DNA from: a virus | Length of the DNA: 35,560 bases | Virus record (IMG/VR): IMGVR_UViG_3300021961_000300 | Location: 1 to 35,560 of that record | Direction: 5' to 3' (one strand) | Part shown: in pieces, positions 17,332 through 35,560 of the stretch | Layout: every line of letters begins with the position of its first letter | Numbering within the stretch: the first letter of the stretch is position 1 | The notes under the pieces: generated by a model | What the model was told of the DNA's origin: nothing | Database searches by the model: none | What the model saw: the letters and a program-made list of their open reading frames with translations, nothing else | Made by a program: the position numbers and the translations under genes

Positions 17332-20300
17332 AACTATAGTCTAGATACTTTAGGGGAGAAAGTCTTGTGACTACAAAGGATGTAGACAATCCAGAGATTC
17401 CATTAAGTGTATAAGAATTCAATTCTATAGGATCAATTCTTGTCCCAAGATCAATCTTACCCCATGAATATTGTCCGAAGAATTCACTATATCCAATTCC
17501 AGATAAAGAATTGTAGTCTGAGACGCTAACAACAACTTGAGCGACTGTTGTCGTTCCATATCCTGGTGCTTCTGTCTGTGCTATTGAGACTGAAGCCACT
17601 TCATAAACATTATCAAGGAACTGAGTACCAATTCCCAAGACAGAACCATCTTGATATAGAGAGGTAACTCCATTACCAACGTTAGAATTGTAAACAGTAA
17701 AGTAGTAATTTGTTTGAATTCCACTTACAGTAATCGCAGTTCCAACAATAGAGGAGTCTCTCAGGAAAGAATCTGAAGGTACCAATAGATCAAATTTAAT
17801 TCCTGTAGAAGCAACTCCAACCGAAACAGTGCTAATTCCTACAACAACACCAAAGTCTCCTGAATATGTAGATGATACGTTGGTTTCAACAGTTGTTGGT
17901 GAAACCTCAATCAAAACTTGTGGTGGATTTGTAGTTGTGTATCCAGTTCCTGGTGAGGTTATAGTAATTGTAGTTACACTTCCATTTGAAATGGTAGATG
18001 ATGCAGAAGCTCTTTGTGTGGAACCAAGTCCAACAGGATTTCCAATGGTTACAGTTGGTGCAGTAGTATAACCAACTCCACCATCACTAATCGAAATTGA
18101 TGTTATTGTTCCTGCCGTAGAGACTATTGCTGTAGCCGATGCCCCAACCTTTTGATCTTGTGAAACGAAATAAACCGTTTGTCTTGCAGACGTTGTAGTA
18201 TTTTCGTTATTTGCATCAAAAAATGGTTTGATGCTCTGTACGAAAACTACTGTTGATCCGATTCCAACTGATTGAATACCGATCGTGGTTGGATTAATTA
18301 AAGATTCATAAAGAACTCTTGATTTATTTACAAAAGATCCGTTAATAACTTTATCCTCAGTCTGTCTACACCAGGTAACCGGTCTAGCACAGTCTGGATC
18401 ATTGTCAATTCCAGGCCCAGAGTATGCATTAGTCTCAACTGTATCTGTAGAATTAATTCTTGTAACAAGTCTTTCTTCCTGATCGGTTGAATTTTCGCAT
18501 AAATCTGAGTCTCCCTTTATAGTTAAGTTATCTCCAACTTTTACCGTTTCAAGAACATCCGCAAAGATTACATCAACATCACCAGTTCCTTTGTAGAATA
18601 TAACTTTAGAGGTATCTCCTCCATTTGTAAATCCACTGATTGGTCCTTTTGGAGCCTCACTGAACGTGATAATACTTCCGCCGTTGAAAGTGTAAGATTC
18701 ACCTGGAACTTGTAAAATATCATTAATGAATATGAGAAGAACTGCATCAACGTCGATTGGTGATCCATTTCTAGCTCTGATTGTAACGGGAGAATCATTC
18801 AATCTTAACTGGAAAGATCTGGTTTCGCCGTCAAATAAATCATCAAATCTATCAAGAACTTGGAAATCTCCAACAGTCCATCCAGAGAAATTATCTGAGA
18901 AAGTTTTATCAATTGTAATTTGGAATTCATCATATGTTTTTGATGTGTCTGTGGGTATTCCGACAGTTCCACCAATATCAAAAGTCAATACTTCACCTTG
19001 ACCGTATCCATAACCAGTATTCTTGATGGTGAAATCAATTACACTGGATCCCTGACCGACAACTATATCAATGGTTGCGGATGTTCCAAGTCCTGAAGTT
19101 GATGTTGAACTGTATACTAAAGGAATATCAGAATAACTGAGTGGATCATCAAATATAACAATAGGTGGATTTGTTGAGGTATATCCCGACCCAGGATTTG
19201 TAATCGCAACACTTACTATATTTCCATTACTGACAGTTGCTGTTCCAATAAACTCAATATTTGGAGTTCCGGTGCTTGAAGTTGCAACGCCAACGTTTAC
19301 TATCGTTTGAATACCTGCACGATATCCAGATCCACTATTACCAATACTGATCGCGGAAATTGTACCTGCAATTGAAACAGTTGCGGTTCCTCCTGCAGAA
19401 ACTAAAGGTTGATATGCAAAACCTGCAGTTGATGCAACTGAAACTATGACTCCACCGACCGGAATACTTGATGCATTTGGATCATATGAAACTGAAGAAA
19501 TAGATCCAGAGAATGTTATTGAAGTTACTCCAACATTTTCAGATAGATCATAATCGCCACTATAAGATTGAGTTCCTTGAGGGGCTTGGAAAATTCCATT
19601 TACTAAGATTATACCATCACTCGTTGAAACTCCAGTTACATTTTGTTGCTCTGACTTGAGCGTAAATGTTTTTGCAATTCCAGTAAATTCGCTTGAAATA
19701 TCATCAAAAATAATATTCTTATAATAAGTTTCATTAGAACTATTAACAACACCGGACCTTATGAAAGTTCTTCCTTGGAATTTGGAGAACGTTGTAATTC
19801 CAGTCCAATCTCGTTCATTTGGAGGATTTGTAGTGCTTCCGATTGGAGTAGGACCTTGAGGTGCTTCAACAAAGTGAATTGTATTGTCTACAATATTATA
19901 GTTTCCGCTTATTTTTCTAACTAGAGATCCTGCAGAGTGGGAAGATATTCCAGTTCCCATCCAAGGTCTATTTACAAGAATTACATTAGTGCTGCCAAGT
20001 CCTACCGACTGGATTAGCATTATTTCATCGTCAACTTTGATTAAATCTCCACCAAAGAATGATGATATTCCACTAAAAGTTAAAACATCATCTGTGACTA
20101 AATTTTCGATAGCTAGAGTTGTTGTTACTGATGATCCAACCACAGGGGATTGAATATAGTTGTCTATTAATATTAAAGCCTTGGCATTTTGATTAGTTGA
20201 TGTAAGTGAATGTGATGTTCCAATTCCAACAGAAGTTAGATCTAAAACATTAGGAACAACATTTAATGCATCTTGTGCCGAAGCAGCCAATTTAATTTTA

Positions 20301-32856: not shown

Positions 32857-33012
32857 TTAAATTTCCTCCAGTTCAATTAAATTAGGATCAATATCATCTC
32901 CCGAGAAAAACGATTCTGAGAGATCTTGAAGAACCTCAGTAGTTTCATCAATACTGAGGTTCACATAAATTTTACGCCCTTTATAAAGAATATTATAAAG
33001 TTGATCTGCCAT
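32857..33012 (-). CDS. 51-aa acidic conserved hypothetical protein
   Basis: The product starts MADQLYNILYKGRKIYVNLS and ends in an acidic stretch (GDDIDPNLIELEEI). A longer reading from 33060 is open, but I chose the ATG at 33012 because it overlaps the stop of the glycosyltransferase as TAATG and because MADQLYNILYKGRKIYVNLS is the start I recall for cyanophage relatives. The function is unknown. It sits between the glycosyltransferase and the basic 47-aa protein in one operon. Confidence 0.82.
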   Translation of the reverse strand: MADQLYNILYKGRKIYVNLSIDETTEVLQDLSESFFSGDDIDPNLIELEEI

Positions 33013-33785
33013 TAGATTACGCGAGTTTTTTCGTGCCCGACGCGAATCCGAGGATCGCACCAGATATCAAAGCCCTCATCCTTTGCATCAAGACAGAATG
33101 AGACATCTTCTCCACACATATCTTGTACTGCACCAGACTCAAAGACTTGCATCTTCGGAGCAAACCAAGGATACTCAAGATTTTCAAAGACACCCTTCTT
33201 AATGAGAACCCATCCAAAACCTGTGTAATCTACAGTGAATGGCTTCTTACGCTTGCTGATCGATTCCACAGTTTCGTGGTTCATGACTCCACCATTCTTG
33301 CGGAAATCATCTTCCTCTAACCAATGTGCGACAGAGGTTGTGTGTCCGTCTTCAGTAGCATACCAACCTGCGACAATCTCACGCTCATCTCCTTCTGCAG
33401 GAAGAGCCATATCACAGAGCTGCCAGAACTTTTCAGTATTGAATACAATATCACTATCAATCCAAAGTTGATAATCATACTCAAGTCTACCATCCCAAGG
33501 AATTTGCTTCGGACCACGGAGAACATTTGCACCTAATACTTTACAACGTGCAAAGTTAACCATGGATGAATAATCTTGAGAGATCTGAATACTCATTCCA
33601 TTCTGTACTAGATCAAAACAAAGTTGTACGAATGCCTTCAGAAAAATAAAAGAGCATCCACGTCCAGGTAAACAAAATACAATCGATTTACCTTTCATTC
33701 TTTCTTTAATTGCACCATAGTCCCAATCTTCTGTAGATCCTGATGGAACTGGGGCTTTTGCTTTAACAGTAAATCCTTTTGCCAT
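33012..33785 (-). CDS. GT-A fold glycosyltransferase-like protein
   Basis: The product has 257 residues. After a short leader, KSIVFCLPGRGCSFIFLKAF opens the presumed nucleotide-sugar domain. The metal-binding DxD motif is seen as LWIDSDIVF (Asp110-Ser-Asp112). Later, GEDVSFCLDAKDEGFDIWCD (from about 225) and VGHEK (His251) match the acidic catalytic region and the late His of family-2-like GT-A enzymes. It probably transfers a sugar to a phage or host target such as a virion protein, DNA or surface glycan; the acceptor cannot be read from the sequence. A TTGACA-N18-TAAAAT promoter lies upstream, and it leads an operon with the 51- and 47-aa genes. A nucleotide-diphospho-sugar enzyme of another class is the main alternative. 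Confidence 0.8.
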   Translation of the reverse strand: MAKGFTVKAKAPVPSGSTEDWDYGAIKERMKGKSIVFCLPGRGCSFIFLKAFVQLCFDLVQNGMSIQISQDYSSMVNFARCKVLGANVLRGPKQIPWDGRLEYDYQLWIDSDIVFNTEKFWQLCDMALPAEGDEREIVAGWYATEDGHTTSVAHWLEEDDFRKNGGVMNHETVESISKRKKPFTVDYTGFGWVLIKKGVFENLEYPWFAPKMQVFESGAVQDMCGEDVSFCLDAKDEGFDIWCDPRIRVGHEKTRVI

Positions 33786-34964: not shown

Positions 34965-35138
34965 TTACCAACGATCAGGACAGCTGAGATCTTCGACATA
35001 AGCTTCGACACGCTCAGCTGGCTCCAACTTGAATACTTTCTCCCAGTCAAGTTGATGCGGGTCGAAGTCATCAAATACTTCAAGATCTAGAGTGACCCTA
35101 TAACGCTGCTTCTGTGCCTTCTGATAAGCAACCGACAT
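34965..35138 (-). CDS. 57-aa conserved cyanophage hypothetical protein
   Basis: The product starts MSVAYQKAQKQRYRVTLDLE, continues with VFDDFDPHQLDWEKVF and ends in EAYVEDLSCPDRW. I recognise this as a small conserved protein of T4-like cyanophages, with function unknown. The pattern suggests a compact alpha/beta fold. It has its own promoter (TTGACA-N17-TAGACT) about 30-57 bases upstream and is followed by the 83-aa gene after 72 bases. Confidence 0.82.
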   Translation of the reverse strand: MSVAYQKAQKQRYRVTLDLEVFDDFDPHQLDWEKVFKLEPAERVEAYVEDLSCPDRW

Positions 35139-35166: not shown

Positions 35167-35195
35167 AGTCTAAGATGCTATGAGGTTTGTGTCAA
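35167..35195 (-). promoter_or_regulatory. Sigma70-type promoter TTGACA-N17-TAGACT
   Basis: On the minus strand TTGACA (35190-35195) and TAGACT (35167-35172) are 17 bases apart, upstream of the 57-aa gene. The boxes and spacing are identical to those at 34370-34398. Confidence 0.75.
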
Positions 35196-35267: not shown

Positions 35268-35296
35268 TTGACAAAGAGAGGTCCTTATGTTATGCT
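35268..35296 (+). promoter_or_regulatory. Plus-strand sigma70-type promoter with inverted repeat
   Basis: TTGACA (35268-35273) and TATGCT (35291-35296) are 17 bases apart on the plus strand, against the direction of all genes here. AAGAGAG (35274-35280) and CTCTCTT (35295-35301) form a 7-bp inverted repeat over the spacer and -10, suggesting an operator. Confidence 0.6.
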
Positions 35297-35308
35297 CTCT
35301 TAGATCAC

Positions 35309-35350
35309 AAGACTCTGAGGGCTTTACATAAGACTTTAAGGGCTTTATAC
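35309..35350. repeat. 21-bp tandem repeat, two copies
   Basis: Two adjacent 21-base units, each beginning AAGACT and containing AGGGCTTTA, match at 17 of 21 positions. They lie just after the plus-strand promoter. Confidence 0.7.
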
Positions 35351-35384
35351 CGTATCAGAAGAGATTAACCCCACTAATTCTCAA

Positions 35385-35429
35385 CAATAACACCTTATTG
35401 ATTCTCAATAACTGTTACTTTATTGAGAA
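35385..35429. repeat. Alternating CAATAA/TTATTG array with 10-bp palindrome
   Basis: The hexamer CAATAA occurs four times in alternating orientation: 35385, inverted at 35395, 35406, and inverted at 35420. The right pair extends to a perfect 10-bp stem, TTCTCAATAA with TTATTGAGAA (35402-35429, 8-base loop). An alternative stem, 35395-35411, would exclude the flanking ones. Confidence 0.75.
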
Positions 35430-35450
35430 CAATTAAAACACTCAGCTATA

Positions 35451-35487
35451 ATTAAAAAAGGCTTTTTTAATCCTTTTTATTGTTTTT
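35451..35487 (+). terminator. AT-rich terminator-like palindrome
   Basis: ATTAAAAAA and TTTTTTAAT flank GGC (35451-35471). On the plus strand T-tracts follow at 35474-35478 and 35483-35489. The stem is AT-only, so termination strength is uncertain. Confidence 0.4.
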
Positions 35488-35512
35488 TTACGTTATTTTG
35501 ACATAAAAGCAT

Positions 35513-35539
35513 AAAAAAAGACCCCTGTAGATGGGGTCT
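35513..35539 (-). terminator. Rho-independent terminator of an outside gene
   Basis: On the minus strand a 7-bp stem (AGACCCC with GGGGTCT) and a 7-base loop are followed by a run of seven T that begins in the stem's last base pair. It would end a minus-strand gene lying to the right of the window. Confidence 0.85.
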
Positions 35540-35560
35540 CTATGTATCATCAATCAAGTG

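Follow-up and report, generated by a model that had tools for sequence, protein, structure and literature searches.

A compact, recurrent non-coding DNA module of T4-like cyanophages as a candidate replication origin

What is the nature of a short non-coding block that is dense in repeats and inverted motifs and runs against every gene around it? The block lies in a window (the whole 35,560-bp stretch analysed) that is a full IMG/VR record (IMGVR_UViG_3300021961_000300), classed as linear, that covers part of the genome of a T4-like cyanophage (Kyanoviridae). In line with the preliminary description of this DNA, which places all genes on the minus strand, the window's structural genes and open reading frames (ORFs) of annotated size all lie there. 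That description offered two readings of the block, a regulatory RNA with switch-like hairpins or a protein-binding array such as an origin, and it is the second that is strongly favoured here, by a conserved promoter, iterons, exchangeable boxes and an adjoining unwinding tract. Many T4-like phages of marine and freshwater cyanobacteria have a compact DNA module in common, of which the block is a single instance, and the probability that it serves as a replication origin, and probably as the main one, is put at roughly two in three. The parts of the block and its surroundings in the window are as follows.

34965–35138, minus strand: 57-codon ORF matching phrog_12516, function unknown (PHROG match, E 3e-23)
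35167–35195, minus strand: predicted divergent promoter of the 57-codon ORF, TTGACA-17-TAGACT
35268–35296, plus strand: sigma-70 promoter with an extended -10 TG, TTGACA-17-TATGCT, opposed to all neighbouring genes
35297–35308, plus strand: start-site motif CTCTTAGATCAC (family form CKCTWAGATCAC), with the predicted transcription start inside it
35306–35347, plus strand: two iteron-like 21-bp direct repeats (CACAAGACTCTGAGGGCTTTA), from repeat analysis
35378–35387, plus strand: box F1, TTCTCAACAA, its TTCTCAA core invariant in a 14-array alignment
35395–35411, plus strand: box F2, TTCTCAATAA (35402–35411), with an inverted half box TTATTGA before it (same alignment)
35420–35429, minus strand: inverted box R, which reads TTATTGAGAA on the plus strand (same alignment)
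35430–35516, no strand: AT-rich tract, a candidate DNA unwinding element, with its least stable 50 bp at 35447–35496
35517–35541, minus strand: predicted intrinsic terminator for the minus-strand gene upstream

The features of the block are genuine and beyond chance. The plus-strand promoter noted previously is present, just 5′ of where the block had been said to begin, and the position of its -10 box predicts a transcription start at ~35302–35304. The 21-bp tandem repeat (35306–35326 and 35327–35347) is likewise real, with 86% identity between copies that was equalled by none of 300 dinucleotide shuffles. CAATAA and TTATTG alternate as reported at 35385, 35395, 35406 and 35420, with a fifth such site at 35477; shuffles contain a mean of 0.2, and none of 300 came up to the observed number. 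The two separate hairpins and the one competing hairpin can all be drawn as claimed, and the AT palindrome (35451–35471) is indeed followed by T-runs. A second promoter-like match on the plus strand (35423–35452, TTGAGA-18-TATAAT, 11/12) arises where the inverted box meets the AT tract, and its TATAAT is not common to the related arrays that were read.

By blastn, the window's array matches DSL-LC03, a freshwater phage, at 81% over 73 bp in a gap that carries no annotation, and the neighbouring gene matches Bellamy, S-SM2, SynMITS9220M01 and AG-345-O18. The exact pattern of the array returned zero matches and a relaxed pattern was needed. A degenerate pattern of promoter plus start motif recovered at least 120 stretches from IMG/VR, and at least 118 viral contigs are genuine, since two chance matches without the remaining parts of the element (L073 and L104) were dropped. 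Named phages that carry the element are S-SM2 (at ~58.1 kb), Bellamy (at ~73.3 kb), SynMITS9220M01, S-SCSM2R and DSL-LC03. The layout common to these loci, read on the plus strand, is TTGACA-17/18-TAnnnT, TWAGATCAC, repeats and boxes, and an AT-rich tract. Conservation of the promoter and start-motif columns is by construction, because the collecting patterns fix both; this does not apply to the results on boxes, AT tract and spacing or to those of the reciprocal searches. A search with the box array alone, leaving out the promoter, found 14 loci, and all 12 of the new ones have the promoter 94–148 bp upstream in the right orientation. A search with the DnaA-box array alone found 33 contigs, comprising 20 with the canonical promoter, 12 with a TTGACA promoter and diverged start motif (read by eye, a few being deduced from a close relative where the stretch starts inside the promoter), and one that is cut off. 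IMG/VR contigs are fragments rather than independent samples; an 8-mer rule left 83 non-redundant elements, or 82 after one chance match was dropped, and two long contigs and several loci end near the element. A closely similar, slightly different promoter pattern gave 23 scattered matches to unrelated bacteria, and none to cyanobacteria, in 257 Gb of bacterial genomes.

More diverged versions occur at a similar position in S-SM1 and Syn9, where GTGCTAAGA...ACATTTA is followed by paired TTTTCCACA/TGTGGAAAA. The S-SM1 site was identified by eye, while that of Syn9 (~52.6 kb) combines a weak, partial model match (E 0.0135) with an independent DnaA-box pair within ~115 bp. Small annotated ORFs, Syn9 gp86/gp87, overlap the diverged Syn9 element (L146, 4478–4798) and are probably spurious. 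The promoter/start model found no element in S-PM2 or P-SSM2. A DnaA-box cluster at 19.2 kb of S-PM2 was rejected as an element, as it sits in a tRNA cluster; a perfect inverted pair of cyanobacterial DnaA boxes spans the tRNA-Asn/tRNA-Leu junction (L161, 1232–1253; S-PM2, 19231–19252).

S-SM2 carries the element once, as do 11 of 12 long contigs. Tandem copies were seen in contig IMGVR_UViG_3300037961_004308 (L055/L075) at 309–375 and 642–708, 333 bp apart; they differ in box class, and scaffold chimerism is possible given a gap between the stored stretches.

Every aligned member has the consensus TTGACA at -35 and lacks a MotA-type -30 element, so the promoter is not of the middle-mode type. 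The start motif, (C)TWAGATCACAAG, recurs as iterons across the family, with a spacing of 33–34 bp in relatives and up to five copies. Phased direct repeats, a feature of iteron origins, are thus represented both by the window's two 21-bp copies and by the spacing in its relatives.

The boxes that follow are ~10 bp long and form inverted or direct arrays across the family. In the window's group, TTCTCAAYAA boxes stand where TTTTCCACA, the cyanobacterial DnaA box (PMC4674748), stands in about half of the relatives. The latter is enriched, with 96 occurrences of TTWTCCACA in 20.9 kb of elements, where shuffles expect 1.15, versus 18 in 647 kb of flanks; at least one is found in 40 of 82 relatives and at least two in 38. 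In the window and its TTCTCAA group, DSL-LC03 excepted, TTWTCCACA is absent from the sequence available up to 1 kb around the arrays, and the two box types are mutually exclusive, co-occurring in one of 82 relatives (hypergeometric p ~0.001). In other groups the arrays consist of CCACAGATA/AGTAACT or TTATGCGTC; about one-quarter of relatives fit no box type under the simple rules used. The order of boxes and AT tract also differs among relatives, and in some members a box array cannot be recognised. One box type was seen once, in a 7058-bp contig (L017), where palindromes resembling ATGTGTTACACAT are repeated in place of the boxes.

In the window, the weakest 50 bp of the AT-rich tract (35447–35496) are among the least stable 1% of the contig's 50-bp windows. 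When whole loci of 2.5–5 kb were compared, their least stable 50 bp fell inside the element in 47 of 69 relatives, versus 4.5% for equal-length random stretches. Across the family the tract has an internal period of 11–12 bp (z 8 and 9), comparable to the 13-mers of oriC and RK2 oriV (PMC4980987). Intrinsic terminators on the minus strand occur in 19 of 67 relatives, versus 2.5% of random stretches, and on the plus strand in just one of 67. Since the minus-strand terminators recur past the element, it appears shielded from opposing transcription; its own transcript has no conserved intrinsic end, given the single plus-strand case.

The origin reading arises because the element joins the layout of T4 origins, a promoter plus an unwinding element, with that of iteron plasmids. 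The minimal T4 origins oriF and oriG are ~100 bp long and consist of a promoter and an AT-rich DNA unwinding element, with an R-loop transcript priming the leading strand (PMC3016281). The element is like oriF (ori uvsY) and oriG in having a promoter that reads into it, followed within ~100–250 bp by an AT-rich unwinding element, and in being non-coding in function; in addition, the R-loop helicase gene uvsW is annotated in the relative S-SM2. It differs in that T4 employs a MotA-dependent middle promoter and several origins, whereas the cyanophage element has a sigma-70 early-type promoter and a single copy, and its promoter is separated from the AT tract by iterons and by boxes that are DnaA-like or of other types. 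An R-loop would form here by analogy with T4.

Iteron plasmid origins combine iterons, DnaA boxes and an AT tract of 12–13-mers (PMC4980987). Those of RK2 (oriV), P1 (oriR) and F (ori) resemble the element in their helix-phased direct repeats, DnaA boxes and AT tract with ~12–13-bp repeats, and in the variation of box or iteron specificity among relatives. However, a strong promoter crosses the element, the window's group is without DnaA boxes, and no Rep initiator gene was identified beside the element, where the sole fixed neighbour is the 57-codon ORF. Cyanobacterial oriC is similar in that the window's relatives have TTTTCCACA boxes beside an AT-rich tract, but the element is in a phage, lacks a dnaN or dnaA neighbour, and has few boxes (none in the window), and S-SM2 shows no shift in GC skew. 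For Syn9, a single theta origin has been predicted, as relayed in PMC2984593 (original Weigele et al. 2007); the prediction shares with the element the number of one per genome, and that phage carries the diverged element with its DnaA-box pair. Overall, the element appears most like T4 oriF/oriG with iteron or DnaA boxes added.

From anatomy, conservation, copy number and computed biophysical instability, all of them direct observations, we infer an origin that is transcribed, bound by protein, opened and primed. Initiation might proceed as follows. Host RNA polymerase would transcribe rightward, against the genes, from the conserved early-type promoter (35268–35296), and a plus-strand RNA is probably made, which would here be the transcript of the origin. 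The repeats and boxes (35306–35429) would attract an initiator or an architectural protein; the binder could be host DnaA where TTTTCCACA boxes are present, and some phage or host protein for the window's TTCTCAAYAA. Together, the bound protein and the template-paired RNA may open the AT tract (35430–35516), the computed instability of which would favour this step. As in T4 oriF and oriG, the 3′ end of the RNA would then prime the first leading strand, with gp59 and gp41 loading on the displaced strand; uvsW, gp41, gp59 and gp43 are all annotated in S-SM2. The terminator (35541–35517) would keep out opposing transcription. Priming by the transcript is the most likely mode on this analysis.

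Several results weigh against the origin reading. In S-SM2, no flip in strand bias was found at four-fold degenerate sites, and total GC skew is dominated by gene direction. Judging from T4, such a test is probably weak once recombination-dependent replication has taken over, as it soon does. The lack of DnaA boxes in the window's group, the negative outcome of the promoter/start model in S-PM2 and P-SSM2 with its weak match in Syn9, the variable order of boxes and AT tract, and the members in which no box array is recognised also count against it, and T4 is not known to employ DnaA.

Tentatively, the cyanophage elements may be viewed as a novel type of origin, in which a fixed chassis of promoter and unwinding element accepts swapped initiator boxes, combining transcript priming with exchangeable initiator specificity. 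Host DnaA would serve in roughly half of the lineages, and TTCTCAAYAA, CCACAGATA or TTATGCGTC arrays elsewhere. Such a box-swapping chassis is comparable to plasmid incompatibility groups.

The element keeps a fixed position. In 107 of 134 loci (tblastn) the 57-codon gene is divergent from the element, its 5′ end lying a median 133 bp (IQR 132–134) from the -35 box, and an ungapped alignment of 80 relatives shows conservation at the TTGTCAA/ATTATAA positions of its promoter. AlphaFold2 modelling yielded no usable fold for the 57-codon protein (pLDDT 73, pTM 0.44). The gene may act as a partner dedicated to the origin. Gene 25 is ~3 kb from the element in 88 loci. A gene for a 257-aa glycosyltransferase-like protein (phrog_1574; 33012–33785, minus strand in the window), 77–89% identical across cyanophages, is typically ~1.2 kb away. 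On a different interpretation, the very tight spacing of the two divergent promoters would suit a regulatory region in which a regulator from host or phage uses the boxes as operators, without initiating replication. In this arrangement DnaA, which also regulates transcription in bacteria (PMC7198777), would act as a transcription factor or be titrated, with control exerted over the 57-codon gene and the plus transcript. This is unlikely: the boxes are downstream of the plus promoter, on the far side from the 57-codon gene, and past the boxes lies a conserved, unstable AT tract that is left unexplained, as is its 11–12-bp period.

Also unlikely, and a little more so, is a small RNA gene, acting in trans or in cis, whose ~180-nt plus-strand transcript would fold, or pair with its targets, and thereby control genes of the host or the phage, the repeats and hairpins being parts of a functional RNA. 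A dedicated promoter, a conserved 5′ end and the non-coding nature of the block would fit such a gene (the element has no conserved plus-strand reading frame, with plus-strand ORFs a median 21 codons long), as would the antisense transcription mentioned for Kyanoviridae (PMC10976474). However, the RNA structure itself fares poorly. Across 14 related arrays, 89.7% of the cells in the proposed helices are paired, versus 89.3% with shuffled partners; the competing hairpin has 81.6% versus 83.3%, and compensatory changes amount to one cell in total. Without this covariation, which the preliminary description had put forward as a check, and with hairpin partners missing in other members of the element, the switch hairpins were rejected. 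The TTCTCAA core is instead kept as sequence while both hairpin arms drift independently beyond it, a pattern that looks like inverted protein-binding boxes. In addition, single-stranded folding of the plus strand is no more stable than that of shuffles (z -1.1), the minus strand being somewhat more so (z -2.9); Rfam gave no family match to the element at gathering score and no credible match in the window. The transcript would also lack a defined 3′ end, and its middle is swapped wholesale among relatives while the AT tract is retained.

A recombination, partition or packaging locus would agree with single copy, phased repeats and AT-richness, but is very improbable, as a promoter and DnaA boxes are unexpected there. 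Moreover, headful packaging of the T4-like kind works without a unique pac site, and partition is not required in a lytic phage.

In the ocean, T4-like cyanophages rank among the most abundant viruses. No paper found in this analysis maps an origin for them, the prediction for Syn9 aside, and the element, read as an origin, is a precise candidate for such a place. It raises the prospect that host DnaA is recruited by a T4-like phage, and it provides a sequence tag with which replication control can be compared among cyanophage lineages.
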